Source: Bacteroidota bacterium (lineage in GTDB: Bacteria > Bacteroidota > Rhodothermia > Balneolales > Balneolaceae). From it: 64,000 nt of DNA. The stretch covers positions 1 to 64,000 of the forward strand of contig JAQCBZ010000005.1 in the NCBI GenBank assembly GCA_027621355.1. Direction: 5' to 3'. Shown piece after piece: positions 7,421 through 21,831 of the stretch. The position numbers and the translations under genes were made by a program. Positions within the stretch are counted from its first letter, which is position 1. The number at the start of each line of letters is the position of its first letter. The notes under the pieces are model-generated. The model saw nothing but the letters and a program-made list of their open reading frames with translations. It did not search any database and was not told the DNA's origin.

Positions 7421-8635
7421 ATGCATTCCTTTGCCCTACATATGTCGACCCGTCTTTTGTTTGGACCCGAAAAAGAAGCCGACTTTATCTCATCGATTGC
7501 CAGCAACGGAGCCCATGTCTTAGTGGTCATAGGGGGTGGATCGGTGGAGCGTATTGGCTTAGTCGACCGCGTACTCACAGGACTTGACGCGGCAGGGATT
7601 CAACACACGCTCTTTCGAGGCATAGAACCTAATCCTATCGATGGTACAGTGGATCGAGCGGCGGCTGAGGGAAAAGCGGCGGGTGTTGACAGTGTCTTGG
7701 CCATTGGAGGTGGGTCTGTAATGGACGCGTCGAAGGCGATTGCCGCACTCATTCACGAGGATGAGGCCCATGTTTGGCCTTTTGTTACGGGACAGCCAAA
7801 ACGTGGTACCATGAAAGGGGCGTTGCCTATTTTTACGGTCCCAACGACGGCTGCAACAGCATCTGAATTAACGCCTCATGCGGTGATCTCAAAGCCTGAG
7901 GAACAAGGCAAGTGCGCCATTTCTTATCCTTTTTTGCAGCCCCTGGTTTCATGGCTAAACCCTGAGTTTCATACCAGTCTCCCAGCTCACGTCACAGCCG
8001 ATGGTGGGGCGGATATTTTGTCGCATGTTTTTGAGAATTATATCCTTGGTGATGATGCCTCCCCATTTGCAGATCGCTATTCTGAAGGGGTCATGGATAC
8101 CGTGATCGATGTGTTGCCTCGCCTCTTAAAGGATCTCAACAATGTTGCCTACCGAGGGCAGCTCCAGTGGGTCTCCGCAATGGCTTTAAATTCCATTCAG
8201 GTGGCTGGGCGACAGCCTTCCCCTTTTCCGCTCCATGCGATTGAGCACTCCATGAGTGGATACCACCCAGCATTGGCACATGGACGCGGATTGGCAACCT
8301 TGTTTCCAGCCTATTTTCGGATGTTACTCGATCGAAAGGAGCACGTGAATCGCCTTGCACAATTTGGTCGCCGTATCTTTTGGGTAACGCCTCAAGAGGA
8401 TCAAGCTGCAGCGTTGGCTGGAATTGAGGCCTTCGAAGAGTGGTTACGCGGTGTGGATTTATATCAATCCATGGAGGATATTGGGATTCCAGAAGAGGCC
8501 TTTGAGTCGATTGCCAGTTATGCCGTGAATGTATATGGTAATGGCAAGACCCTTCCTGTCTCAGGACCTTGGACCAAAGAGGAGGTGATCGAACTTTTCA
8601 ACCGTGCCAATGAACAAAAAAGACCCAATGCATGA
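7421..8635 (+). CDS. Iron-containing (group III) alcohol dehydrogenase
   Basis: An NAD(P)-dependent, metal-dependent alcohol or aldehyde oxidoreductase. Family marks: start-proximal STRLLFGPEKE, the nucleotide loop GGGSVMDASKAIA, TVPTTAATASELTPHAV, ADGGADILSHVFENY with metal-ligand Asp, and HAIEHSMSGYHPALAHGRGLA with metal-ligand histidines. This pattern resembles the butanol dehydrogenase/YqhD branch, which often detoxifies aldehydes with NADPH; that narrower assignment is inference. I start at ATG 7421 (404 aa) because family members begin shortly before the T-R-x-x-F-G motif. The ORF-track start at 7379 is a TTG. The 3' end overlaps the mnmD gene, so the two are probably cotranscribed. Confidence 0.92.
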   Translation: MHSFALHMSTRLLFGPEKEADFISSIASNGAHVLVVIGGGSVERIGLVDRVLTGLDAAGIQHTLFRGIEPNPIDGTVDRAAAEGKAAGVDSVLAIGGGSVMDASKAIAALIHEDEAHVWPFVTGQPKRGTMKGALPIFTVPTTAATASELTPHAVISKPEEQGKCAISYPFLQPLVSWLNPEFHTSLPAHVTADGGADILSHVFENYILGDDASPFADRYSEGVMDTVIDVLPRLLKDLNNVAYRGQLQWVSAMALNSIQVAGRQPSPFPLHAIEHSMSGYHPALAHGRGLATLFPAYFRMLLDRKEHVNRLAQFGRRIFWVTPQEDQAAALAGIEAFEEWLRGVDLYQSMEDIGIPEEAFESIASYAVNVYGNGKTLPVSGPWTKEEVIELFNRANEQKRPNA

Positions 8636-9392
8636 GTTTGAGATTCGGCCCACAGTAGATGGGTCTGATACCCTCTTTGCATCCGCATTTGGGCAGCATT
8701 ATCACAATCCAAATGGAGCCTTGGCAGAAAGTCAGCATGTTTTTTTTAAGCCCTTAGGGCTCATTCCCGATTTACTTTGCCACCGTCCTATTACCGTTCT
8801 TGAAATAGGATTTGGTACGGGGCTGAATCTTTTGATTCTGACGGATTGGGTCAAGCGACTCCGATCCAAAAGCGAGATTCGCTATATGAGTGTTGAAGGG
8901 TTTATGGCGCCTACTGAAACGCTAAAGACATTAAATCACGCTTGCTCGTTGGGTTTGCAAGCGCCCTGGGAATCCTTTGTGGATAGACTTGGAACAGGGC
9001 AAAAGGATCAGAATAGCTGGCACTCTCTTGGCCTGTTCATCCCAAATATCACCGTAGACCTTTTTTTAGGCCCGTTTGAGGCGTTGACCACCCCTCCTGC
9101 GAAGGCAAATGTGTTGTTTCACGACCCTTTTTCACCAGAATCGAATCCAGAGGGGTGGACCTTGGAATTATTTGAGCAGCTGCGTCAATGGTCCACTGAG
9201 GATGCTACCCTGCGGACGTATGCTGCTTCAACGGCATGCAGACAGACCTTGATTGAAGCGGGATGGATTGTCGGTTCCGCTAAAGGAGCTCTTGGCAAAC
9301 GGGAGATGACATTGGCGGCGCATTCCGAAGATTATCTACCTGGGGTAAAGCTGGTGAAAAAACGCCAAGAAGACTACACATCCTCTACTTGA
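8628..9392 (+). CDS. mnmD: MnmC-like tRNA (mnm5s2U34) methyltransferase domain protein, MnmD
   Basis: DUF752-type, SAM-dependent methyltransferase that methylates the 5-aminomethyl group on U34 of tRNAs. Features are IRPTVDGSDTL and YHNPNGALAESQHVF at the N-terminus, the SAM loop LEIGFGTGLNLLIL, and FHDPFSPESNPEGWT, which is the family's catalytic-region signature. At about 254 aa it is the stand-alone methyltransferase half; the FAD-dependent MnmC oxidase domain of E. coli is absent. Possible starts are GTG 8604, ATG 8610 and ATG 8628. I chose 8628 because it matches family N-termini and overlaps the upstream stop by 8 bases. Its 3' end overlaps the convergent helicase gene by 19 bases. Confidence 0.88.
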   Translation: MHEFEIRPTVDGSDTLFASAFGQHYHNPNGALAESQHVFFKPLGLIPDLLCHRPITVLEIGFGTGLNLLILTDWVKRLRSKSEIRYMSVEGFMAPTETLKTLNHACSLGLQAPWESFVDRLGTGQKDQNSWHSLGLFIPNITVDLFLGPFEALTTPPAKANVLFHDPFSPESNPEGWTLELFEQLRQWSTEDATLRTYAASTACRQTLIEAGWIVGSAKGALGKREMTLAAHSEDYLPGVKLVKKRQEDYTSST

Positions 9393-11368
9393 GACAATCG
9401 TGTAATGAGCTTTCCTAAGGTTTTGTCATGATAAAGTTTTCGAATATGTCGCATATCGGCAAAAATGAGGAGCTCCTCCTTGGCGCGTGAGCAGGCAACG
9501 TTGAGAAGTCGTTGGACATGCAATGGGTTCTCATTTTTGGTCTCATCAAGCGGTCGAACCGTATAATGGCGCTCCCCTTTTGAAGAGCTTCGATCCCCAC
9601 TCATGACGGTATCAAAGATAATAATGGGCTTTTCCCGCCCTTGAAACGTGTGAATGGTCCCCACTTCGAGATCGCCTAATCCCTCTTGTGTCCATCGGCG
9701 CATTAGTTGATTCGCTACATGACGAAACGGGACAATGACTCCAATATCGTGTTGAGACCACCCCTTTTCGAGGATTTTGAGAATCGTTTTGGATACTGCA
9801 TCGGAATGGACAGGATTCATGGGACGAAATCCACGCTCTCCCTCCTCTTGGATGACATAAGGGTCTTTTGACTCGGTATTGATGATGGTTGCAGGCGGAT
9901 TTTCTATGGCAAGGGATTGTTGCTCATCAGGCGGGCTATCAGCTTGATCTTCGGCCAATTCTGTACGAAGGCGTCCATCATAAAACACGGAGCTTATGAC
10001 CTTTGCCAAACGATCTTTCATTCGGTATTGCTGGTCAAAAAAGAAGGTGACATCCCGGTGCTGATCATGCCAGTCAAACAACGCACTAGACGTTTTGGCT
10101 TCGGAGACCAAGCTGAAAATATCAAGCTCCATAAACGCCCTCGCTTCTGGCTCTTCTGCCACAGAAATCGGGGGTAATTGCATGGGGTCACCCGCTACGA
10201 TGACCCTTTTCTTGGCATGAGACGCCGCGACAAGGAGTTGAGGAATATGGGCCATAGAGGCTTCATCAACCACCAACACATCAAACTCATGTTGGCGAAA
10301 CAAATCCGACGTGCTCACCTTGGCTAGGGTCGTAGCCACAAGAGATTTACGCCGAAACTCCGTGCGCTCTCGTGTGTAGACAGACTCATCAATGAGTTCT
10401 TCGAGTTCGTCCAAACTCCCGTAAGGCTTGAGCGCTTCCTGGACAAGCTCCCATTCTAATTGGACCGTCGAAGAGGGTTTTTTTCCTTTAGCCACTCTGT
10501 CCAGAGCCTCTTTGGCTTTGGTGGCTCGATTCAGCAACTGAATCTCATCACTGACTTGATCTCGCCTCTCAGCCTGAATCTGCTCCAATTGACATGAAAA
10601 GGCCAATCCTTGAATTTGATCATCATCAATGACAGGATCGCCAAAACGGGTTAATCGATTTGGCTGAATGGCCACTTGATTTCGTTCAAGTGCCAAGCAT
10701 GCGCTTTTCAGGACAACATCGACAGCACGATTGGTATTTGAGACAAGCAACACCCGATCCCCTTGGGCTAAACTCAGCGCTACAATATGTCCCAAAGTGG
10801 CTGTTTTTCCCGTTCCAGGAGGCCCCCAAAGATAAATACAAGGCTTTGATAGGGCTGCATGAATGGCTGCTTTTTGGGATGCATTAAGCATGGGATCCAT
10901 CATGGGAGGGGACGCAGAAGCCGCAAAAGCGTCCTGTTCTTGCTCAGAACCACTCAGTAGGCCCAGCACCTCAGTCCGCTGAAGCCACTCTTCCTGCTTG
11001 GTCAAGCCTACCATCTCATCACGCGTTTTGCGTGGCACAAACTCATTTTCCCACTCAAGACGCAGATTCGACAAAACCGGTCGATCAAAATGGGTAAACC
11101 GAAGTACGGTCTCCCCATGCTCCATAGAGACGACTTCGGCCTGGTCTTCTTTCTCTTGTCCTGGAATCAAGCCCCGTATGGATTCAGCGAAGCGAAGTGC
11201 AGGATGCATCGACCTAAATTTAAATTCCCGAGCCCCCACGCGAGCGCCGTCTCGCCACTCCACCATCGCGGGATAAGCGCGCAATGTATCAATCTCAGCC
11301 TCAAGAGCCTGGATAGACTGTTTGGCCAAAGCGACGGGATCAAAAGATTTTTTGGGGGTGGCTGTCAT
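9374..11368 (-). CDS. UPF1/IGHMBP2/Dna2-like superfamily 1 helicase
   Basis: An SF1B-type ATP-dependent DNA or RNA helicase (AAA_11/AAA_12 modules). The N-terminal 150 residues form the stalk and 1B-like region. Walker A is GPPGTGKT (about residue 182), motif II is VDEAS, then VAGDPMQLPP (motif III), QQYRMKDRL (motif IV), VGTIHTFQGREKPI (motif V) and NVACSRAKEELLIF (motif VI). A predicted helical, Lys/Glu-rich insertion sits between motifs Ia and II. I start at ATG 11368 (664 aa) because it gives a TGATG overlap with the upstream regulator stop; the ORF-track start at 11377 is TTG. It is the third gene of the mutS-gntR-helicase operon, which suggests a role in nucleic-acid metabolism or repair, but the substrate is unknown. 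Confidence 0.88.
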   Translation of the reverse strand: MTATPKKSFDPVALAKQSIQALEAEIDTLRAYPAMVEWRDGARVGAREFKFRSMHPALRFAESIRGLIPGQEKEDQAEVVSMEHGETVLRFTHFDRPVLSNLRLEWENEFVPRKTRDEMVGLTKQEEWLQRTEVLGLLSGSEQEQDAFAASASPPMMDPMLNASQKAAIHAALSKPCIYLWGPPGTGKTATLGHIVALSLAQGDRVLLVSNTNRAVDVVLKSACLALERNQVAIQPNRLTRFGDPVIDDDQIQGLAFSCQLEQIQAERRDQVSDEIQLLNRATKAKEALDRVAKGKKPSSTVQLEWELVQEALKPYGSLDELEELIDESVYTRERTEFRRKSLVATTLAKVSTSDLFRQHEFDVLVVDEASMAHIPQLLVAASHAKKRVIVAGDPMQLPPISVAEEPEARAFMELDIFSLVSEAKTSSALFDWHDQHRDVTFFFDQQYRMKDRLAKVISSVFYDGRLRTELAEDQADSPPDEQQSLAIENPPATIINTESKDPYVIQEEGERGFRPMNPVHSDAVSKTILKILEKGWSQHDIGVIVPFRHVANQLMRRWTQEGLGDLEVGTIHTFQGREKPIIIFDTVMSGDRSSSKGERHYTVRPLDETKNENPLHVQRLLNVACSRAKEELLIFADMRHIRKLYHDKTLGKLITRLSQVEDV

Positions 11369-12270
11369 CAATCCCAATACTCTGAGCGTATCATCTCTTT
11401 GGTTTTTTCCGAAAGGGTATAGCGCAAGGCAATGCGTTGTGATGAAGGGTACTTTGATTCGACGAGCTTTGCCGCTGTCGTAGTATGAACAATGACATCA
11501 CAATTCCTTACAAACAAGGGTAGCGATTTTCCATAGGTCGCCCCGGCCACAAAGGACCCCTCAATTTGAACGGCACTTTTGAGCATTTGAAGCAGATACG
11601 GCAACGTCGCTTCTTGGGTCGTTACCAAACCTAAGGTTTCGTTGTTGAGCCGCTCAGAAATCATCAAAAGAGCCTCCTGCTCGAATTGAGTCATCATCGG
11701 AATAAGACGTAACTCATCCTCATGGACTCGGTAGGGATTAAACAGATGAATCGGGATAAAAAGGGCATCGTAATTGTGCACTTTGGGAGAAGAAGGGTCT
11801 AGACTTGTGATCGTCATGGCCTCCGCCCGCACCCCAACTTCCCGTTTAATGGCCTCAGCATGCATATTGGCAAGCTCCTCCGTCTCAGCAATGACCACAC
11901 TACGTTGAATTCGATTGGGCCATTCCTGATAAAGCAACTGCTCTTCGAAAAGCGTTTCAAGCTCCCCTTCGTCAAGCCCATATCCAATAAGCTCCTCGAT
12001 GACCGCTCGCATTTTCTCCGCACCCATTTCGAGGCGAGCTGATTTGTCAAGTAGAGTCGATTGCCTTTTCACGATAAATCCCACCCCCACACGCCCTTCT
12101 AGCAACCCTTCCTGCTCCAGAGATTGATAAGCTTTGCGGACCGTGTGAAAACTTGCTTCCAACTGCTTCCCTAATTCCCGGGTCGATGGCATAGCCTCCC
12201 CCATCTGAAACTGCTTGGTGGCAATCATTAACCTGATTCGGTCGGCAATGTGTTTGGCACTGTGTTTCAT
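11368..12270 (-). CDS. GntR-family transcriptional regulator with unassigned C-terminal domain
   Basis: Residues about 1-72 are a winged helix-turn-helix of the GntR type (IADRIRLMIATKQF, GEAMPSTRELGKQL, VRKAYQSLEQEGLLE, GVGFIVKR). The remaining 225 residues match none of the common effector domains (FCD, UTRA, MocR aminotransferase) that I can recognise. They read as an alpha/beta domain with two Rossmann-like stretches: VVIAETEELANMHAEAI, and YDALFIPIHLF followed by LGLVTTQEATLPYLL and CDVIVHTT. This could be a two-lobed small-molecule binding domain, by inference only. Its ATG overlaps the mutS stop (ATGA) and its stop overlaps the helicase start (TGATG), so it is locked into the mutS operon. 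Confidence 0.85.
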   Translation of the reverse strand: MKHSAKHIADRIRLMIATKQFQMGEAMPSTRELGKQLEASFHTVRKAYQSLEQEGLLEGRVGVGFIVKRQSTLLDKSARLEMGAEKMRAVIEELIGYGLDEGELETLFEEQLLYQEWPNRIQRSVVIAETEELANMHAEAIKREVGVRAEAMTITSLDPSSPKVHNYDALFIPIHLFNPYRVHEDELRLIPMMTQFEQEALLMISERLNNETLGLVTTQEATLPYLLQMLKSAVQIEGSFVAGATYGKSLPLFVRNCDVIVHTTTAAKLVESKYPSSQRIALRYTLSEKTKEMIRSEYWD

Positions 12271-15083
12271 TTGTGGTCCTCGCGATTACGCTCCCCGTGA
12301 TTTCGATCCTCGAGTGATTGCTTGAGCTCCAATAACAACTGAAACGCATCGATGGGTGAGAGCCGCTCCATCTCGAGGGCTTTCATTTTGTCCAACAAAG
12401 CCTCTTCTGCGGGGGTTACGGATGAGCTTAGGCCAAACTGTCCACTTGCACCCTCATTAACACCAAAAAGCGCCATTTGGGCGATGGTCGTAGAGGGTGG
12501 AATCGCCCCTGTTTGAGGCTTGGAAGATCGTGCCTTATCCACCGATAATTCTTGGGTCTCCAAGGATTGCAGGATTTCCCTAGCTCGGTGTAATACGGGT
12601 GCCGGAAGTCCCGCTAAGGCAGCCACCTGGATTCCATAGCTATGATCGGCCCCACCTTCGACAAGTTTGCGCAAAAATATAATCGCACCCTTATGCTCTT
12701 TGACGCTCACATTGGCGTTGACAATACGTGGATAGCGTTCGGCAAGCTCATTTAGCTCATGATAATGGGTGGCAAAAAGTGTTTTGGCAGCCACGGATGG
12801 CTCTTCGTGGAGGTATTCTGCCATGGCCCATGCGATGCTTAATCCATCAAACGTTGACGTCCCTCGACCAATCTCGTCAAGAAGAATCAGCGATCGAGGG
12901 GTCGCGTTATTCAGAATATTAGCCGCCTCGTTCATCTCGACCAGAAACGTACTCTCGCCGCCCGCCAAATTATCCGACGCGCCCACTCGTGTAAAAATCT
13001 TGTCAACCAGCCCAATTGACGCTTCTGCCGCAGGGACAAAACACCCCAACTGAGCCATGAGTACAATGAGTCCGGTTTGTCGCAGGATCACCGACTTACC
13101 TGCCATATTTGGACCTGTGATCATCATAATCTGCCGGGATGCAGGATTGAGTGTCAAATGATTAGGGATAAAGGGCTCATCAGAGCCTAGCAAGGTTTCC
13201 ACAACCGGGTGACGCCCTTTGACAATGTTTAGAGACGTACCCTCATGCACTTCGGGTCGGCAATATCCTTGTCGAAACGATACCTCTGCAAAGCTGCAGT
13301 ATACGTCTAGCTCTGCAAGAGCCGCGGTGGTGCGGGCAAGCGCTTCAGCATAGTCTGATACCAAGCTAGTAAGCTCCTCAAAAAGGGCGCGCTCGAGGCG
13401 TTGAGTCGTCTCTTCCGCATCCAAAATGCGCTCTTCAAGCTCTTTGAGCTCAGGGGTGATGTACCGCTCCGCATTGGTCAGCGTTTGCTTCCGAATAAAT
13501 GAGTCCGGAATAGGTTCTTTCCGAGCTTTGGTTACTTCGATGTAATACCCAAAAACACGGTTATAGCCTAATTTGAGTGAAGAAATCCCTGTTTGCTCGA
13601 TCAGTTCTTGTTTCATCTTGGCCAAGACCCCCTTGGAGTCGCGCGACAAAGCACGGGCTTCATCCAAATCTGCACGAACCCCTTCCTTGAACGTTGAACC
13701 GTCGCCAAGCTGTGCAGGAAGTTCCTCCTCAAGGTGACGGTCTAGCAACGCATACAAATCCTCATGAGGTGAGATATGTTCGATGACGCTCTGCAAGGGC
13801 GCAAGACCTTGATGTTGGCTCAAGCTGGCAGCAAATTGATCCATCATGGGTGGGATTCGGCCCAAGGCACTTCGAATCGACCCAAGGTCTCTTGGTGAAC
13901 ATCGCTCCAATACCACACGTGTCATGATACGCTCCACATCAGGAAATCCTTGCAAGGCTTGACGTAATGCTTGCCTCACTTCATGATGCTGTACCAAGGC
14001 ATCGACTCGCTCTAGACGCTGTTGGATTGGATCGAGGGCACGCAAAGGGCGATGAAGCCATTGGCGAAGTAACCTCCCCCCAAAGGGTGTTTCGGTGCGA
14101 TCAAGTAACGACACAAGTGCCCCCTCTTCGACTCGAGTTGCCGAACGCTGTGTGAGCTCGAGGTTCAGTCGCGTGACATCATCGAGGGTCATATACTCTT
14201 CAGGCTCAAGCACCCGAATCGTACGAATGTGGCGCAGTGCAGTCTTTTGGGTCTCTTGAAGATAGTTCAGAAGCCCCGCCATCGCTTTTTGGGCTAGAGG
14301 TAGCTGTTCTAATCCAAATCCTTTCAGCGAATGGGTGCCAAAGTGTTCAGTCACTATTTTATAACTTGCATCTCCTTCAAATACCCACTCTCCAACCGAT
14401 GAGCTAGGAACTTGGTCGTACCCCATGATGCCTTGTCGACGCCATGATTCAGGAAGAATCACCTCCGAAGGCTCCAAAAACTGCTTAAAATGAGTGAGCT
14501 CGGCCATTGAGTACTCACACACACCACATTCCCCCGTTGAAGCATCCGCGTAGGCTACACCCACTCGCAATTCCCCTACGGACTTTCCGATTGAGGTTTT
14601 TTCTGGGTAAAGCGAGAGTAAATAATTATTACGGCTTCGGTCCAACACATGATCCGAGAGGGTAACCCCAGGCGTTGCTACCTCTGTGACCTCACGAGAG
14701 ACAATTTTTTTTCCCGCTTTTTTGGCCGTCTCTGGATCCTCTGTCTGATCACAAATCGCCACTTTGTACCCCTTTTTCACAAGCTTAGGGAGATAGCTAT
14801 CCACCGCATGATGAGGGAAGCCAGCCAAAGGCGTTTGATCCCCCCCATTATTGCGATTGGTCAAGGTAATGCCAAGCTCTTTGGAGACGAGTTTTGCGTC
14901 TTCCCCAAACGTCTCATAAAAATCCCCTACCCGAAACAGTAATACCGTCTCTGGATAGGCATCTTTTACCTCCTGATATTGTCTCATTAATGGCGTAACC
15001 TTCTTGGAAGGTATGCCTGGCGACTTGCCAGAGGGTCCATTAGCTGATGCAGAATTCGACAAAGATGAGTTTGACACTTCCAT
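12267..15083 (-). CDS. mutS: DNA mismatch repair ATPase MutS
   Basis: MutS recognises mismatches and small loops and starts mismatch repair with MutL. The N-terminal mismatch-binding domain has FRVGDFYETF, containing the Phe-x-Glu that stacks on the mispair. The connector, core and clamp domains follow. The C-terminal ABC-type ATPase has Walker A TGPNMAGKS (about residue 657), signature/Walker B LLDEIGRGTSTFDG and the His switch ATHYHELNEL. At 938 aa it is somewhat longer than E. coli MutS, with a serine/glycine-rich N-terminal lead (about 25 residues) and a low-complexity stretch near residue 865. It is the first gene of the three-gene operon and starts 21 bases from the divergent glycosylase gene. 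Confidence 0.97.
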   Translation of the reverse strand: MEVSNSSLSNSASANGPSGKSPGIPSKKVTPLMRQYQEVKDAYPETVLLFRVGDFYETFGEDAKLVSKELGITLTNRNNGGDQTPLAGFPHHAVDSYLPKLVKKGYKVAICDQTEDPETAKKAGKKIVSREVTEVATPGVTLSDHVLDRSRNNYLLSLYPEKTSIGKSVGELRVGVAYADASTGECGVCEYSMAELTHFKQFLEPSEVILPESWRRQGIMGYDQVPSSSVGEWVFEGDASYKIVTEHFGTHSLKGFGLEQLPLAQKAMAGLLNYLQETQKTALRHIRTIRVLEPEEYMTLDDVTRLNLELTQRSATRVEEGALVSLLDRTETPFGGRLLRQWLHRPLRALDPIQQRLERVDALVQHHEVRQALRQALQGFPDVERIMTRVVLERCSPRDLGSIRSALGRIPPMMDQFAASLSQHQGLAPLQSVIEHISPHEDLYALLDRHLEEELPAQLGDGSTFKEGVRADLDEARALSRDSKGVLAKMKQELIEQTGISSLKLGYNRVFGYYIEVTKARKEPIPDSFIRKQTLTNAERYITPELKELEERILDAEETTQRLERALFEELTSLVSDYAEALARTTAALAELDVYCSFAEVSFRQGYCRPEVHEGTSLNIVKGRHPVVETLLGSDEPFIPNHLTLNPASRQIMMITGPNMAGKSVILRQTGLIVLMAQLGCFVPAAEASIGLVDKIFTRVGASDNLAGGESTFLVEMNEAANILNNATPRSLILLDEIGRGTSTFDGLSIAWAMAEYLHEEPSVAAKTLFATHYHELNELAERYPRIVNANVSVKEHKGAIIFLRKLVEGGADHSYGIQVAALAGLPAPVLHRAREILQSLETQELSVDKARSSKPQTGAIPPSTTIAQMALFGVNEGASGQFGLSSSVTPAEEALLDKMKALEMERLSPIDAFQLLLELKQSLEDRNHGERNREDHK

Positions 15084-15104
15084 AACCTCAAAGGTACAAA
15101 ACAG

Positions 15105-15761
15105 ATGAGACTGGACGTATGGGAAAGTTATAAAGGGTCACTTGAGCCTATCCCGGTGGAGATACTTCAACGGGAGCCTGTGGTAGATGTGGCCCGAGAA
15201 TTGCTTGGGGGAATCCTTGTCTCAGGTGAGGGTTCAGAGCGTGTTGTGGCGCGCATTCTCGAAATAGAAGCCTATGCAGGCACGGGAGATCGGTCCTGTC
15301 ATGCTGCCAATGGACGTCGAACTCCTCGCAACGAGGTAATGTACGCCGCAGGAGGAACCGCCTATGTGTATGTATGCTACGGTATTCACCATCTGATGAA
15401 CATTGTCACCAATCAGGAGGGAACCGCAGACGCCGCATTGATTCGAGGGGTTGCTATTATCGAGGGGTTGGACACGGTTGCTGCACGCATGAAACGGACC
15501 CAAAAGGATTTAGAATCGCCAAAAAAACGGCTTCAGATGACTTCGGGTCCAGGCAAGGTGACCAAGGCATTAGGAATTACCATGCAACATAATCGCAGGC
15601 CTTTGGTTGGTGTAGGATCCTCAGATTTCCAATTAATGCGTGACGAGTTTGTGGTGGATCCATTACAAATAGAAGCTTCACCACGGGTCGGGCTCAATTA
15701 TAAGGAAGCCGGAGACGATATCTATTTTCCGTGGCGATTTACACCAAAAGGGTATTTGTGA
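15105..15761 (+). CDS. DNA-3-methyladenine glycosylase (AAG/Mpg family)
   Basis: A monofunctional glycosylase of the eukaryotic AAG type, which flips out and removes alkylated or deaminated purines (3-methyladenine, hypoxanthine). Signature segments are VARELLGGILV, the catalytic Glu region ILEIEAYAGTGDRSCHA, RRTPRNEVMYAAGGTAYVY, CYGIHHLMNIV and DAALIRG. At 218 aa it is the usual bacterial size. The ATG at 15105 gives about 15 residues before the conserved PVEILQREPVVDVA. A GTG at 15156 is closer to family N-termini, so the true start may be shorter. The start-to-start distance to divergent mutS is 21 bases, so the promoters must overlap or lie inside coding sequence. The pairing joins two DNA-repair functions. 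Confidence 0.94.
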   Translation: MRLDVWESYKGSLEPIPVEILQREPVVDVARELLGGILVSGEGSERVVARILEIEAYAGTGDRSCHAANGRRTPRNEVMYAAGGTAYVYVCYGIHHLMNIVTNQEGTADAALIRGVAIIEGLDTVAARMKRTQKDLESPKKRLQMTSGPGKVTKALGITMQHNRRPLVGVGSSDFQLMRDEFVVDPLQIEASPRVGLNYKEAGDDIYFPWRFTPKGYL

Positions 15762-15773
15762 GTCGTTTGACCT

Positions 15774-15793
15774 ATCGTTCCGATAGGAACGAT
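15774..15793. promoter_or_regulatory. Perfect inverted repeat between mpg and yceI
   Basis: ATCGTTCC-GATA-GGAACGAT is a perfect 8-bp inverted repeat 12 bases after the glycosylase stop. An overlapping alternative hairpin, CCTATCG-TTC-CGATAGG (15771-15787), shares the same bases. There is no T-tract, so it is not a classical terminator. It lies just before a TTGACC hexamer at 15796, so an operator or 5'-UTR element for yceI is possible. Confidence 0.3.
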
Positions 15794-15859
15794 TCTTGAC
15801 CTAGATTAAGTTTTATTAGTTCAAATTAATGAATGAAATATCACAAAGCTTAAACCACT

Positions 15860-16450
15860 ATGAATATCTTTTTAGCAAGCATTTTAACGATTGCGCTGGG
15901 CTTCAGCCCGTTGCAGTTGGATCCCCCCACATGGAATGTGGACAAGTCTCACACAAACGTTGGATTCACGGTAAAGCACTTCCAAGTGACACCCGTTCAA
16001 GGTGAATTCAAGGAGTACGACGTAGACCTTAAGTTCAGTCCTGATGACTTGGAAAACAGCTCGTTGAGTGTCGTTATTGATGTCAACAGCATTGACACAG
16101 ACAACGAGCGTCGCGATGGCCACCTCAAAAGCGAAGATTTCTTCAATGTGGCGGAATTCAACAACATTACGTTTGAAAGCCAGTCTATTGAGGCTGTTGG
16201 CGAAAATCAGTTTGTCGCCATAGGGCAACTCACCATGCGTGATGTAACCCAAGACTTTGAATTACCCTTCACGCTATTGGGTCTTGTTCAAAATCCATTT
16301 AATGAAAATGAGACCGTAGCGGCTTTCCAGTCTGAATTCCAGATTAATCGCATGGACTATGAAGTGGGTCAAGGAGACTGGATTGCTAATATTATAGTGG
16401 CCCACGAAGTCGATGTTGAGCTACTCGTTGAGGTCAACGCAGAGCTATAA
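15860..16450 (+). CDS. YceI family protein, probably exported
   Basis: A lipocalin-like beta-barrel protein of the YceI family. Members bind polyisoprenoid chains and are found in the periplasm; a physiological substrate is not established for most. The family pattern is clear: WNVDKSHTNVGFTVKHF near the start of the mature part, the central FNVAEFNNITFES, the strand GQLTMRDVTQDFELPF, and a closing VDVELLVEVNAEL. Residues 1-18 are a hydrophobic segment that probably serves as a signal peptide, but no clean Ala-x-Ala cleavage site is visible. At 196 aa the length is normal. It is a single-gene unit, closed by a strong terminator at 16493-16524. Confidence 0.93.
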   Translation: MNIFLASILTIALGFSPLQLDPPTWNVDKSHTNVGFTVKHFQVTPVQGEFKEYDVDLKFSPDDLENSSLSVVIDVNSIDTDNERRDGHLKSEDFFNVAEFNNITFESQSIEAVGENQFVAIGQLTMRDVTQDFELPFTLLGLVQNPFNENETVAAFQSEFQINRMDYEVGQGDWIANIIVAHEVDVELLVEVNAEL

Positions 16451-16492
16451 CCTCTTTGTAGTTTCGCGTGCCTGATGGACGTGTAAAATCTC

Positions 16493-16524
16493 AAAAGCCA
16501 TTCGATCACCGGATGGCTTTTTTT
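16493..16524 (+). terminator. Intrinsic terminator after yceI
   Basis: AAAAGCCATTCG, loop ATCAC, then CGGATGGCTTTT forms a 12-pair stem with one T-G wobble and runs into TTTTTTT. It lies 42 bases after the yceI stop and is the clearest plus-strand terminator in this half of the window. Confidence 0.9.
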
Positions 16525-16549
16525 ATTTGTTGAGCAGCTTTTTTTGTAG

Positions 16550-16568
16550 TTTAAACTTATCGTTTAAA
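16550..16568. promoter_or_regulatory. AT-rich inverted repeat upstream of the DUF6580 gene
   Basis: TTTAAAC-TTATC-GTTTAAA is a perfect 7-bp inverted repeat 30 bases before the DUF6580 start codon. It lies between the yceI terminator and the next gene, where a promoter or operator is expected. The AT-rich arms make chance occurrence more likely. Confidence 0.25.
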
Positions 16569-16598
16569 GCACTTCTTCGACTCAACTTTTAACGTATA

Positions 16599-17177
16599 AT
16601 GAATCAAAAATATTCACTCCCTTTTTGGGGAATTTTGTTAGTGATTGGCGTGGCTGTGATGTCAAGGCTATTGCCACATCCATTGAACATGAGTCCTTTG
16701 GCTGGGATTGCCCTATTTGGGGCTGCCTCGCTGAAAAATCGGGGTCTTGCCATAGTATTACCTCTTTTGGCGTTTTGGTTGAGCGATCTTGTGTTGAACA
16801 ACACCCTCTATCGGGGCTTTTATGATGGAGTAACGCTGGTCCATTCAGGGATGATATGGACCTATGGGGCGATGATTTTAATTGCTCTAATCGGGTTTAT
16901 CGCCTTACGAAAAGTATCTATGACTCGGCTTGTGGGAGCGTCACTTACAAGCTCGTTTCTTTTCTTTGCAGTCTCTAATTTTGGTGTCTGGATGAGTGGA
17001 ACGATGTACCCAAAAACAATCGAAGGATTGGTCGCGTGTTATGTAGCTGCTATTCCTTTTTTCCAGAACACGGTTGCTGGCGATCTTTTTTACACCCTTG
17101 CTATCTTTGGTGGCGTAGCTGTAGCGCAATCTAGACATGAATTACGCCATTCTTGGAGCCACCTCTGGAATCGGTGA
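16599..17177 (+). CDS. DUF6580-type integral membrane protein
   Basis: A small polytopic inner-membrane protein. Five or six hydrophobic segments can be seen (around residues 8-22, 28-42, 48-65, 82-100, 108-130 and 160-175). The stretch LNMSPLAGIALFGAASL near residue 30 is what I recognise from DUF6580 proteins common in Bacteroidota, sometimes described as putative transport proteins resembling ECF S-components. No catalytic motif is seen and no substrate can be named. Its last 41 bases overlap the start of the SDR gene in another frame, so the two are almost certainly cotranscribed. The ATG is part of a TATAATG sequence. Confidence 0.7.
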   Translation: MNQKYSLPFWGILLVIGVAVMSRLLPHPLNMSPLAGIALFGAASLKNRGLAIVLPLLAFWLSDLVLNNTLYRGFYDGVTLVHSGMIWTYGAMILIALIGFIALRKVSMTRLVGASLTSSFLFFAVSNFGVWMSGTMYPKTIEGLVACYVAAIPFFQNTVAGDLFYTLAIFGGVAVAQSRHELRHSWSHLWNR

Positions 17178-17862
17178 GGCTCTAGCCAAACTTCTTGTAC
17201 GTGAAGGACATTCTGTTGGAATAACAGGGCGCAGGACGGAGCGTCTCGGGGCCATAAAGCGTGAGATCGAGGAGGCGCCTGGCGAAATCTATATCCAAAC
17301 CATGGATATCACTAAGCCTGATGATGCATGGGATGCATATCTGGCATTGGAGACCGCACTGGGGCATATTGATATCTGCGTGTTAAATGCTGGGGTGTCA
17401 AACTATCAAGGCTCTCGAGCCGTGGAAGTGGAAGCACGTGTTGTTCAAACCAATGCCGTTGGCTTTGCTGCCATGTTTCGGCGGGTTTATGAGCGATTTG
17501 AGCAACAAGGATGGGGGCATTTGGTGGGGGTCTCCTCGGTTGCTGGATTGATTGGGTATTACGATTCGGCAGCCTATTGTGCATCCAAGGCGTTTGTGTC
17601 CAATTATATGCAGGGATACCGGCAACTTGCACGCCGAAGTCATGCCTTAATTCACGTCACAGACGTACGGCCAGGGTATATTGACACACCCATGACCGAA
17701 GGGAAGCGAAATATGTTTTGGGTCGTCTCTGCAGACGAGGCAGCAAAACATTTGTTTATAGCCATTCGGCGAAAAAAAGCTCGAGCGTATATCCCTCCTC
17801 GGTGGATGTTGGCAGGATGGGTGCTCCGCTATGCTCCTGCGTGGATCACGGATCGGATTTAG
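17137..17862 (+). CDS. Short-chain dehydrogenase/reductase (SDR) family oxidoreductase
   Basis: A classical SDR using NAD(P). The nucleotide-binding motif is GATSGIG (residues 7-13), with GRRTERL after strand 2 suggesting NADPH preference, then LNAGVSN. The catalytic Ser is in GVSSVAG and the Y-x3-K pair is Tyr147/Lys151 in AAYCASK. RPGYIDTPM closes the substrate pocket. At 241 aa it is normal. The substrate is not readable. The gene begins 41 bases inside the upstream DUF6580 gene and its 3' end overlaps convergent yifB by 17 bases. The C-terminus (YIPPRWMLAGWVLRYAPAWI) is hydrophobic and may associate with the membrane. Confidence 0.9.
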   Translation: MNYAILGATSGIGEALAKLLVREGHSVGITGRRTERLGAIKREIEEAPGEIYIQTMDITKPDDAWDAYLALETALGHIDICVLNAGVSNYQGSRAVEVEARVVQTNAVGFAAMFRRVYERFEQQGWGHLVGVSSVAGLIGYYDSAAYCASKAFVSNYMQGYRQLARRSHALIHVTDVRPGYIDTPMTEGKRNMFWVVSADEAAKHLFIAIRRKKARAYIPPRWMLAGWVLRYAPAWITDRI

Positions 17863-19513
17863 CCATTCTCTTGGGTCGAAACATCAAAGCCTCTGCCACA
17901 TGGTAGGGTGTGACCTGATCTGATTCCTCTAAATCTGCAATCGTCTGGGCAACCTTGAGAAGTCGGTGCCTTGCTCTCATCGATAGACCAAATGTCGACA
18001 TCGCTTGATGGAGGACTTTATCCACATCCCGATGTTTTTTGATAAGGGATTTGACTTGCGAGGCGCTCATTGTGCTGTTGGTTGCGAGCAGGCCTATACT
18101 AGAGGACCTTTCGCCCCCTTGATCATGACTCTGCCTCGTTTGGAACCTATGCGCTTGACGATTACGCGCTTCAAGAATTTGACTGCGTAACTCCCCAAAA
18201 TCCATTCTCGACTCTTCAGATGGGTCTTGCACCTCCTGGCTAGAAACCCGGTCCATCTCCACAAAGAGATCAAAACGATCTCTCAATGGTCCACTTATTT
18301 TTTCCTGATACAATCGTGCTTTTCGCTCTTGAGCAACATCATGTAGCATTGGGTCTGGCCATTGTCCCTCTGGGGACGGGTTCATCGCCGCTAGCACCAG
18401 TGCATTCGCTGGATAATCTACTGTACGCTTTTGGCGGGTTAATGTAATAACCCGATGCTCGATTGGCTGTCGTAATGCTTCCAATACCCCTCGTTTATAC
18501 TCTGCTAGCTCATCCAAAAACAACACTCCATGGTGCGCCAACGAACACTCTCCAGGAGTCGCTTTTGTACCTCCACCCAAAAGACTGACAACAGTCGCTG
18601 AAGTATGCGGCGCTCTAAATGGACGTTCTCTAAACAAACGCGCGCTCAGTTGGCCTGTTGCAAATCCAGTCAAGTCGCCACTCGACCTTTTAAACGCTCC
18701 CACAATAGAGTGTATGGACATCACTTCTAACCTCTCTTCTGCATTCAAAGGGGGTAATAGATGTACCATAGTTTTGGCAAGCATCGTTTTTCCACATCCT
18801 GGAGGGCCAACCATGAGCGTATGATGGTGACCTGCAGCTGCGATGACCATAGCGCGTTTAGCAAGTGTTTGGCCAACAATCGAATCAAAAGGATGGGCAG
18901 ATGCATCAGGCACTCGACCAGACTCTCGATCATGCGCATCGACCTCGTCCAAACCGATCGTTTGAACCTCGGTTCGTGATTCCAAGGGGCACCCGTCATG
19001 AAGCCAATCAAAGGCTTCCCGAAGCGAGGCAATCCCTTTCACATGCAATCCCTCGACAAGTCGCGCCTCCTCGACATGTTGCCTTGGCAACACAATGCGC
19101 TCAAAGCCATGTTTTTTGAGCTCCAAACAGATTGGCAACACGCCACGCACCGAACGACACTGTCCAGAGAGTCCCAATTCTCCAATAAAGGCTGTTTGAG
19201 AAAGGACTGGCGCCAAGCGATCCATTAACGTTTTGTGGCTGGCGCCATACAGGCCCACTGCAATCGGAAGATCAAACGTCGACCCCTCTTTATGCACATC
19301 TGCAGGGGCAAGATTCACGATAATCCGACCCCTTGGAAACTGTGTGGCCGATGACTTGAGAGCAGACTCAATTCGCTCTCGGGATTCATTAACGGTTCGG
19401 TCGGGTAGGCCGACTAAATAAAATCTTGGCAGCCCACCCGTGGCATTGACTTCCACTTGAATAAGGGTTCCATGCATCCCTGTGGGGGTTGCGCTCCAAA
19501 TTTGGACAATCAT
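17846..19513 (-). CDS. comM: YifB/ComM family Mg-chelatase-like AAA+ ATPase
   Basis: ComM is a hexameric AAA+ helicase that helps branch migration during natural transformation in Haemophilus; most bacteria carry a homologue of less certain role. The N-terminal ChlI-like domain (FYLVGLPDRTVNESRERIESAL, NLAPADVHKEGSTFDLPIAVG) precedes an AAA+ core with Walker A VGPPGCGKT (about residue 234), RPFRAPH, Walker B GVLFLDELAEY and FDLFVEMDRV. The C-terminal Mg_chelatase_C domain ends ADLEESDQVTPYHVAEAL. At 555 aa it is longer than the usual ~510, through inserted polar stretches near residues 180-205 and 460-480. The symbol is by family only. It lies downstream of trxB with 110 bases between. Confidence 0.93.
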   Translation of the reverse strand: MIVQIWSATPTGMHGTLIQVEVNATGGLPRFYLVGLPDRTVNESRERIESALKSSATQFPRGRIIVNLAPADVHKEGSTFDLPIAVGLYGASHKTLMDRLAPVLSQTAFIGELGLSGQCRSVRGVLPICLELKKHGFERIVLPRQHVEEARLVEGLHVKGIASLREAFDWLHDGCPLESRTEVQTIGLDEVDAHDRESGRVPDASAHPFDSIVGQTLAKRAMVIAAAGHHHTLMVGPPGCGKTMLAKTMVHLLPPLNAEERLEVMSIHSIVGAFKRSSGDLTGFATGQLSARLFRERPFRAPHTSATVVSLLGGGTKATPGECSLAHHGVLFLDELAEYKRGVLEALRQPIEHRVITLTRQKRTVDYPANALVLAAMNPSPEGQWPDPMLHDVAQERKARLYQEKISGPLRDRFDLFVEMDRVSSQEVQDPSEESRMDFGELRSQILEARNRQAHRFQTRQSHDQGGERSSSIGLLATNSTMSASQVKSLIKKHRDVDKVLHQAMSTFGLSMRARHRLLKVAQTIADLEESDQVTPYHVAEALMFRPKRMAKSDP

Positions 19514-19532
19514 GGTTCTGAGTAACGTGTCA

Positions 19533-19550
19533 AGGTGTTTAAGAACACCT
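19533..19550. promoter_or_regulatory. Perfect inverted repeat upstream of yifB/comM
   Basis: AGGTGTT-TAAG-AACACCT is a perfect 7-bp inverted repeat, 19 bases before the comM start codon on the minus strand and directly next to a TTGACA. There is no T-tract, so an operator or a leader hairpin is more likely than a terminator for trxB. Confidence 0.28.
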
Positions 19551-19623
19551 ATTCAGAACGACCTGGACTAGAATCCTTACAACTCAGATGTGTTTTTGTC
19601 TGAAAATCTATGGATGGCTGAAA

Positions 19624-20565
19624 TTATGCTTCTGCCAACCATCGCTCGGCATCAATCGCAGCCTTACAACCCGACCCTGCGGCGGTAACAGCTTGACGAT
19701 ACGTCGCATCCATGGCATCACCACAGGCAAATACACCTGGTAGATCCGTATGGGTGGAGTGCTCTTTGGTTTGGATATACCCAACATCATCCATCGTGAG
19801 GACCCCTTTAAATAAATCGGTATTTGGCTTGTGACCGATGGCTACAAATAACCCAGTCACATCATCCATGAGTGTCTCTTCACCCGTTTTTAGATTACGA
19901 ACGGTTAGTCCCGTCATGACTGGATCGCCATGAACATCTACGACTTCAGAATCCCATACAAAATCGATTTTTGGGTTTTCAAATGCCCGGTTTTGCATCG
20001 CTTTGGAGGCCCGAAGCTCATCACGGCGATGAATGACAGAGACTTTACTGGCAAACTTTGTCAAAAAGGTCGCCTCTTCCATCGCAGTATCGCCACCCCC
20101 AACTACAGCCACGTGCTGCTCACGGAAAAATGCCCCGTCACAGGTTGCGCAAGCACTGACACCTTTCCCTTTGAGGCGTGTTTCGCTCGGAAGATTTAAC
20201 CACTTAGCCGATGCACCCGTGGAAATAATAATCGCCTTGGCAAACAGCTCTGTCTTTTCGTCCACTGTTAATTTGTATGGATGGCTATCAAAGTCGATAT
20301 CCGTCACAAATCCATACTGACAGTCGGCGCCAAATCGGCGAGCTTGCTCACGGAAATCTTCCATCATTTTGGGTCCCAACACACCTTCAGGATACCCTGG
20401 GTAATTCTCCACATCGGTCGTCTGCATTAATTGACCTCCTGGTTCAGGCCCTTCTATTACCAATGGCTTTAAATCTGCCCGTGCAGCATACAATGCAGCT
20501 GTCAGGCCTGCAGGCCCGCTTCCAACGATCACGACGTCGAGTGTCTCTCCTTGATATTCTTCCAT
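19624..20565 (-). CDS. trxB: Thioredoxin-disulfide reductase
   Basis: Reduces thioredoxin with NADPH through FAD and a redox-active disulfide. The FAD motif VIVGSGPAG is at the N-terminus, the active-site pair is Cys139/Cys142 in ACATCDG, the NADPH motif VAVVGGGDTAMEEA and the FAD-closing GVFACGDAMD follow. At 313 aa it is a low-molecular-weight bacterial TrxR of ordinary length. The ATG at 20565 directly precedes EEYQGETLDVVIVG. It diverges from pntAA across 51 bases; both deal with NADPH supply and use, a plausible functional grouping. comM lies downstream on the same strand but is separated by 110 bases containing an inverted repeat. Confidence 0.97.
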   Translation of the reverse strand: MEEYQGETLDVVIVGSGPAGLTAALYAARADLKPLVIEGPEPGGQLMQTTDVENYPGYPEGVLGPKMMEDFREQARRFGADCQYGFVTDIDFDSHPYKLTVDEKTELFAKAIIISTGASAKWLNLPSETRLKGKGVSACATCDGAFFREQHVAVVGGGDTAMEEATFLTKFASKVSVIHRRDELRASKAMQNRAFENPKIDFVWDSEVVDVHGDPVMTGLTVRNLKTGEETLMDDVTGLFVAIGHKPNTDLFKGVLTMDDVGYIQTKEHSTHTDLPGVFACGDAMDATYRQAVTAAGSGCKAAIDAERWLAEA

Positions 20566-20616
20566 TTGAACTGAATCTTTCGTTACTTTGTTTCACAGTA
20601 AAGGTACGAAAATTCA

Positions 20617-21831
20617 TTGCTCGCTTTGACACAAGATCCAGTCTCCTCTCCGAAATCTTCCCCTATTTTGCTCGCCATTCTTCATGAAGCCAAAGATGGA
20701 GAAACCAGGGTTGCCATGACACCTGATGTGGTGAAACAGTGGGTCGAGAAAGGGGTTAACGTGGTGGTTGAGACGGGTGCTGGAGCTATGGCCAGCTGCA
20801 CTGATGAGTCCTACAAAGAGGCGGGAGCAACCATTGCAAAAACGGCCAAAGAGGCAACTTCAAAGGCCAATATCCTTGTGGCATTACAAATGCCCTCTGC
20901 TGAAGTGCTCGATTTACTGCCTGAAGGGGCGTTAGTGATCAGTTTTGTGTGGGGACTTGCCCACCCTGAACGAATCACAGAATTTACCAAGCGAGGCCTG
21001 CAAGCGCTCTCTATGGATGCGATTCCTCGCACAAGTCGAGCTCAAACGATGGACGCATTATCCTCGATGAGTAATATTGCCGGATATAAATCGGTGCTCA
21101 TTGCCGCGTCAACCTTGGATCGTTACCTTCCCATGATGATGACGGCTGCCGGAACCGTTCCCCCTGCCAAAGCGTTGATTGTGGGTGCTGGCGTGGCGGG
21201 TCTTCAAGCAATTGCGACAGCCAAGCGGCTAGGTGCGGTGGTTGAAGCATATGACATTCGCCCTGTGGTCAAAGAACAGGTGCAAAGTTTAGGAGCTAAG
21301 TTTGTCGAGATTCCTCTTGAGGAGGAAGACACCGAGTCTACTGGCGGTTATGCCAAAGAACTAAGCGATCGCAACAAAGAAATTCAGCGCGAAACACTCG
21401 CCAAGCATGTCGCAAAATCAGACATCGTCATTACCACGGCTTTAATTCCAGGACGACCTGCCCCTAAATTAATCTTTGAAGATATGGTTGAAGCCATGGG
21501 TGAAGGGGCTGTGATTGTAGATCTTGCCGCCGAACAAGGTGGAAACTGCGTGTACACCAAGGCCAATGAAACCGTGGTAGAACATGGGGTCAAAATTGTA
21601 GGCCCCGTGAATCTGCCCGCCACGCTAGGGTACCATGCATCTCAATTGTATGCCAAGAATATTCACGCACTCCTTCAGTTGGTGATTCAAGAAGGTGCAA
21701 TACACCTTGATTATAGTGATGACATCATCGAGGCTGCGCTGATTACAGCTGTAAAACCAACGGAATCCTCGGCAGAATCCTCAACTGCATCGCCAGCGGC
21801 GGACACTGAAAAAACTTCCAAAACGAGTTAA
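20617..21831 (+). CDS. pntAA: NAD(P) transhydrogenase subunit alpha part 1 (PntAA)
   Basis: The NAD(H)-binding domain I of the proton-translocating transhydrogenase, which drives NADPH formation with the proton-motive force. Alanine dehydrogenase/PNT modules are clear: HEAKDGETRVAMTPDVV, the nucleotide loop IVGAGVAGLQAIATAKRLGAVVEAYDIRP, and GPVNLPATLGYHASQLYAKN. At 404 aa with no membrane segment, it is the split form in which the transmembrane part is encoded by the next gene. It ends in a Ser/Ala/Thr-rich tail (about 370-404) that looks disordered. No ATG is available: the start is TTG at 20617 or 20626, with AAAGG twelve bases before the first. It is the first gene of pntAA-pntAB-pntB. 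Confidence 0.95.
   Translation: MLALTQDPVSSPKSSPILLAILHEAKDGETRVAMTPDVVKQWVEKGVNVVVETGAGAMASCTDESYKEAGATIAKTAKEATSKANILVALQMPSAEVLDLLPEGALVISFVWGLAHPERITEFTKRGLQALSMDAIPRTSRAQTMDALSSMSNIAGYKSVLIAASTLDRYLPMMMTAAGTVPPAKALIVGAGVAGLQAIATAKRLGAVVEAYDIRPVVKEQVQSLGAKFVEIPLEEEDTESTGGYAKELSDRNKEIQRETLAKHVAKSDIVITTALIPGRPAPKLIFEDMVEAMGEGAVIVDLAAEQGGNCVYTKANETVVEHGVKIVGPVNLPATLGYHASQLYAKNIHALLQLVIQEGAIHLDYSDDIIEAALITAVKPTESSAESSTASPAADTEKTSKTS

Follow-up and report, generated by a model that had tools for sequence, protein, structure and literature searches.

GntR-type transcriptional regulators form six subfamilies, each defined by its C-terminal domain, and in the YtrA subfamily this part is reduced to about 50 amino acids (aa) folded into two helices (PMC4494728). 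Helicases of the UPF1-like group of superfamily 1B (SF1B) have a common layout of defined subdomains (PMC5452015), and the DNA2/Bad helicase-nucleases are defined by an iron-staple RecB nuclease domain with four cysteines (PMC7430649). Here we analyse a locus in which a GntR-type gene and a UPF1-like helicase gene, called reg and hel below, follow mutS in a Balneolaceae genome (Bacteroidota, Rhodothermia, Balneolales; assembly GCA_027621355.1, contig JAQCBZ010000005.1). The window is the whole stretch analysed, 64,000 nucleotides (nt) from position 1 of this contig. A literature search found no paper on GntR regulators in Balneolaceae or on operons combining GntR and mutS genes. The features of the locus are as follows.

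15083-12267, minus strand: mutS, 938 aa, MutS1 with all five domains (NCBIfam NF003810, 1013 bits; Pfam MutS_I-V)
12270-11368, minus strand: reg, GntR-type regulator, 300 aa (Pfam GntR, 2.4e-15, 56 bits)
11368-9374 from ATG, minus strand: hel, 664 aa, core-only SF1B helicase like UPF1 and IGHMBP2 (AAA_11/AAA_12)
12270-12267, minus strand: ATGA, 4-nt stop/start overlap of mutS and reg, read from the sequence
11370-11366, minus strand: TGATG, 1-nt stop/start overlap of reg and hel, which have the A in common, read from the sequence

The hel reading frame in the program-made list begins at TTG 11377, and its ATG start is at 11368. An initial annotation had described the two overlaps exactly as they are, and had proposed a tightly coupled operon in which reg may tune repair or hel may work with MutS. 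Our analysis indicates that the conserved unit is probably the pair reg-hel, and that mutS stands in front of it through family-level synteny tightened by genome compaction.

Conservation of the reg-hel pair and its upstream context

Balneolales are an order of marine and halophilic bacteria. Of their 80 genomes with reg and hel on a single contig, 70 have the two as direct same-strand neighbours, and in 7 more they lie within 8 kb of each other. A position of mutS at most 1.5 kb upstream of reg is found in 39 of the 71 genomes with these two genes on one contig; mutS is within 8 kb in 14 others and far away or inverted in the remaining 18. Because the order mutS-reg-hel occurs across Balneolaceae, the arrangement withstands the refuting conditions set in the initial annotation, namely restriction to one species, or regulator and helicase families that usually lie elsewhere in relatives. 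Outside Balneolaceae mutS is located elsewhere, with reg and hel mostly still together. Among 80 GTDB loci, the upstream context of reg-hel is mutS, pdxJ or a TonB-type receptor gene, or a D-Ala-D-Ala ligase-like gene lies alongside; in some of these loci a sugar-isomerase-like gene is inserted between mutS and the pair. The regulator tree requires at least five changes of mutS context and at least three of hel adjacency, and the changes of mutS context usually leave reg-hel intact.

Terminator-like hairpins were found in only 2 of 61 gaps between reg and hel (shuffled mean 0.6) and in none of 19 direct gaps between mutS and reg (shuffled mean 0.2), compared with 18 of the 35 gaps that separate reg from a different gene on its strand (shuffled mean 0.6). 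In 22 of 72 loci a TA[CT]CTT box lies no more than 60 nt from reg, versus 4.2 in shuffles. It resembles the Bacteroidota -7 element and may be part of a promoter. We propose that reg and hel share a transcript started in front of reg and that, if mutS adjoins reg and no terminator intervenes, the pair would be partly transcribed by read-through from mutS. In this scenario mutS would have become the upstream neighbour in Balneolaceae, and compaction would have fused the junctions in the lineage of the window.

Across the loci compared, the overlaps themselves are not conserved. The 4-nt overlap of mutS and reg is seen in a minority of the directly adjacent loci (L031, L039, L044, L049, also L010 and L024), the others having gaps of 31-111 nt. 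The 1-nt overlap of reg and hel is restricted to the window, L031 and L032, with a TAATG form in L002 and a usual spacing of 25-400 nt. Of the 28 same-strand neighbour pairs in the window, 9 overlap and 16 are spaced by 20 nt or less, and coding density is about 97%; the source genome amounts to 1.5 Mb over 59 contigs. Since overlap is the usual state here, it is weak evidence for a special system. The conserved gene order exceeds chance; the overlaps alone are unremarkable. The conserved arrangement that had made the locus look system-like is real, but the weight had been put on the wrong pair of genes, and close coupling of genes is the rule in this compact genome.

The trio is flanked by two opposite-strand genes:

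8604-9392, plus strand: mnmD/MnmC2-type tRNA methyltransferase gene (NCBIfam NF033855), convergent, a recurrent neighbour of hel
15105-15761, plus strand: mpg, methylpurine-DNA glycosylase gene (Pfam Pur_DNA_glyco), divergent, a recurrent neighbour of mutS

The 3′ end of hel overlaps mnmD by 19 nt (9374-9392). At the other side, the start codons of the divergent mutS and mpg genes are 21 nt apart (15084-15104); these two DNA-repair genes, which recur side by side in Balneolaceae, have this tiny intergenic region in common.

Architecture and distribution of the regulator and the helicase

The regulator consists of a GntR-type DNA-binding part and an unclassified C-terminal part:

12258-12070, minus strand: winged-helix DNA-binding domain of the GntR type, residues 5-67, with hardly any variation in Balneolales (alignment)
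11919-11371, minus strand: C-terminal alpha/beta domain of about 180 aa, residues 118-300, with two similar halves (AlphaFold2 model)

The N-terminal winged helix was recognized by Pfam in 64 of 64 reg members. Behind it, the AlphaFold2 model places two helices (residues 76-96 and 101-112) that resemble the YtrA tail. The blocks of the C-terminal domain are predicted mostly at 76-96 on the local confidence scale (pLDDT), and an internal repeat is weakly indicated. Pfam assigned no family to this domain, either in the 64 members or in the domain alone, and in particular no FCD, UTRA, aminotransferase or LacI-type domain. The PDB profile search of the domain gave no relative below E 0.09; the fold search with the whole chain returned nothing for the C-terminal half, its matches being explained by the DNA-binding half. 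By its C-terminal part, reg fits none of the GntR subfamilies tested (FadR, HutC, MocR, AraR and YtrA). It is like the YtrA-subfamily proteins Lin1836, Lmo2241 and YtrA in having a DNA-binding domain followed by two helices; however, these proteins end after about 50 aa, whereas reg continues with its further domain of about 180 aa. BusR, which is among the fold matches, likewise combines a YtrA-like GntR core with an added C-terminal domain, but its match covers mostly the DNA-binding half and lends no support to a relatedness of the C-terminal domains. The C-terminal domain of BusR binds c-di-AMP. In a search of the whole source genome reg matched only itself and no other GntR-type gene. We suggest that reg would be a repressor or sensor with a YtrA-type core and an undescribed alpha/beta effector domain; it is most likely a ligand- or state-sensing GntR protein co-expressed with hel in a small transcription unit.

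For the helicase, the following features were mapped:

11338-10919, minus strand: subdomain 1B, with a stalk helix (residues 11-31), a beta-barrel (34-106) and stalk helices (110-150) (AlphaFold2 model)
10825-10802, minus strand: Walker A motif GPPGTGKT, residues 182-189, invariant in 32 of 32 orthologues

All 32 orthologues carry the superfamily 1 motifs I, III, IV, V and VI. The AlphaFold model (mean pLDDT 86) shows in order a stalk helix, the beta-barrel, stalk helices, RecA1 with a helical insertion, and RecA2. As modelled, hel has the UPF1-like SF1B layout, namely a RecA1/RecA2 core, a 1B barrel and stalk, and a 1C subdomain. The best Foldseek match of the model is IGHMBP2 (4b3f, E 2.8e-29); senataxin (SETX), UPF1 and DNA2 come next. 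The likeness to IGHMBP2 and UPF1 extends over the RecA1-RecA2 core, the 1B stalk and barrel, the 1C helical insertion and the five motifs; hel differs from them by having no CH, R3H or zinc-finger domain, identity is about 20%, and its score against the IGHMBP2-family model NCBIfam TIGR00376 (174.8 bits) is below the cut-off of 348.9. With Bad and DNA2 hel shares the SF1B helicase domain, but it gives no RecB-type nuclease family match and has no conserved set of iron-sulfur cysteines: the window protein contains four scattered cysteines, and one cysteine column is conserved among orthologues. It is the sole AAA_12 gene of the source genome. Taken together with its fold class, hel would be a minimal UPF1/IGHMBP2-like translocase of 5′-3′ polarity. 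It most likely works independently of mismatch repair on RNA or single-stranded DNA, and its level would be set together with that of reg. Amino-acid differences of hel from the sister species (L031) cluster in residues 1-50 and 451-500, the latter being a loop of low model confidence; reg, unlike hel, is 99.7% identical to its L031 orthologue.

The two genes differ in range. The regulator was found in 51 of 59 relatives and in 164 of 196 genomes of the class Rhodothermia, with a single match in each, bar one gene split over two contigs, and had no match outside the class in the phylum sample. In this form, hel is limited to 92 of the 196 class genomes, all of them Balneolales; beyond the class, longer proteins in three genomes of the phylum sample matched it more weakly (E 1e-65 to 1e-74). 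MutS is near-universal (188 of 196 class genomes). At 20 loci on the Rhodothermales side neither mutS nor hel is near reg. The class-wide occurrence of reg without hel and without adjoining mutS implies that reg is older than hel and independent of mutS. What is new at the locus is mainly a class-wide GntR regulator whose effector domain is unclassified, together with a core-only, order-specific UPF1-like helicase.

On the Rhodothermales side (L111-L130), the usual convergent neighbour of reg is a PgpH-type 7TM-HD gene, which we take to belong to the c-di-AMP phosphodiesterase family. An aldehyde dehydrogenase gene, presumably of the proline type from our reading of its sequence, often lies upstream of reg, and a gene for a small unassigned protein also flanks it. 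A second-messenger link between reg and PgpH is possible, but we keep it as an idea only, as convergent neighbours need not be functionally linked.

Weighing the explanations

Several observations weigh against a reg-hel unit with mutS as a mere neighbour. Both mutS and reg-hel are retained at a large number of Balneolaceae loci, which makes the count of changes on the regulator tree modest. The 4-nt overlaps of mutS and reg recur in several lineages, which would fit occasional translational coupling. The best single observation for a link between mutS and hel is one genome, G114 (L147, C2:247901-252555; also L035 and L148), in which hel lies 74 nt behind mutS and reg sits on another contig behind pdxJ. 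Moreover, reg-hel is broken in several lineages outside Balneolaceae, and in one Balneolales branch (L099, L106, L108 and L109) an AsmA-like gene of about 1000 aa separates the two genes. Six genomes lack both reg and hel (Fisher p = 2e-6); this fits a linked unit, yet is confounded by linkage and by incomplete metagenome-assembled genomes. Finally, a search for exact inverted repeats (arms of 4-6 nt, gaps of 0-18) upstream of reg in 80 loci revealed no shared operator-like repeat, only A/T-rich words and clade-specific matches. The arrangement in G114 can be read as a rearrangement intermediate or as differential loss after duplication.

A bolder version of the reg-hel unit, which we put forward tentatively, is that reg founds a new GntR subfamily with a novel two-lobed alpha/beta effector domain, and that the helicase was captured in Balneolales as its operon partner and came under signal-responsive control.

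That reg and hel are functionally unrelated and stay together only through slow rearrangement is a less probable explanation. It would account for the conservation of the opposite-strand flankers mpg, YceI and mnmD alongside the pair, and elsewhere in the class reg functions in the absence of hel. On the other hand, the pair persists through several changes of upstream context, and there are almost no terminators between its two genes.

It is rather unlikely that reg is a local repressor that tunes the expression of mutS and hel in response to a signal. Local control is common among GntR proteins, YtrA-type regulons being mostly one single operon (PMC4494728), and the overlaps in the window make co-expression probable. 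But reg predates hel, and in Rhodothermales it adjoins neither gene. The absence of a shared inverted repeat, and thus of a conserved operator-like dyad, upstream of reg leaves autoregulation without support. The suggestion that reg tunes repair is not supported either, given its class-wide occurrence without hel and away from mutS, and the strong terminators that in 18 of 35 cases separate it from another preceding gene.

Still less probable is a dedicated mismatch-repair operon, with hel as the MutS-coupled helicase of an undescribed repair branch. The locus resembles the MutS-MutL-UvrD system in that mutS adjoins a helicase gene; hel, however, is of the UPF1-like SF1B type and UvrD belongs to SF1A. 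The order mutS-reg-hel across Balneolaceae, the recurring 4-nt overlaps and the position of hel directly behind mutS in G114 speak for such an operon. Against it, Rhodothermia outside Balneolales do without hel though mutS is near-universal, and other Balneolales families keep reg and hel mostly together with mutS elsewhere; among the class genomes, hel shows neither obligate co-occurrence nor obligate adjacency with mutS. Canonical MutL and UvrD are encoded elsewhere in the source genome, so no mismatch-repair helicase is missing. This rules hel out as a replacement of UvrD.

Comparison with the sister genome G001 (C25; L145/L146) separates mutS from the pair as well. Mismatches amount to 62-65 per kb in most places of the window, but fall to 4.3 per kb across mutS and mpg (12480-15761) and to 18-19 per kb from 15761 to about 21.5 kb. 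In synonymous divergence (dS), mutS has 0.012 and mpg 0, compared to 0.18 for reg and hel, and the break in identity is sharp and located at the 3′ end of mutS. The simplest reading of these alignments is a recent recombination exchange of the mutS tract between sister species. As mutS and mpg are nearly identical and reg and hel diverged, mutS moves between species without reg-hel. With mutS thus exchangeable and MutL and UvrD present, the proposal of a MutS-specific helicase finds no support here, and a MutS-specific role for hel or reg is possible but poorly supported.

Over 12480-21500 (mutS, mpg and the following genes) the window is 98-100% identical to G001, versus about 93-95% for most of its length. 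A stretch of about 1.1 kb (17954-19078) within a comM/yifB-like Mg-chelatase gene (17846-19513) is missing from G001, where the gene appears to be truncated or misassembled.

That the locus is an anti-phage defence module, akin to Mokosh or another SF1-helicase system, is very improbable: the PADLOC MkoA profile matches the hel core (E 2.7e-57), but only in its helicase half (positions 612-1100 of 1112), and hel is a single-copy, order-wide core gene without an extra effector domain. The candidate was rejected in the absence of a full-length MkoA/MkoC architecture with partner or effector domains.

Implications for Balneolales and the class Rhodothermia

The lead of a new mismatch-repair helicase can be dropped at little cost. 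What the locus offers instead is a GntR regulator whose sensor domain is unclassified and which is a core gene of the class, kept even in streamlined genomes of 1.5 Mb. In Balneolales this regulator is tied to a UPF1-like helicase, and a role for core-only UPF1-like helicases of bacteria can be tested there. If the helicase was indeed captured as the operon partner of reg, the pair would represent signal-responsive control of a bacterial UPF1-type translocase.

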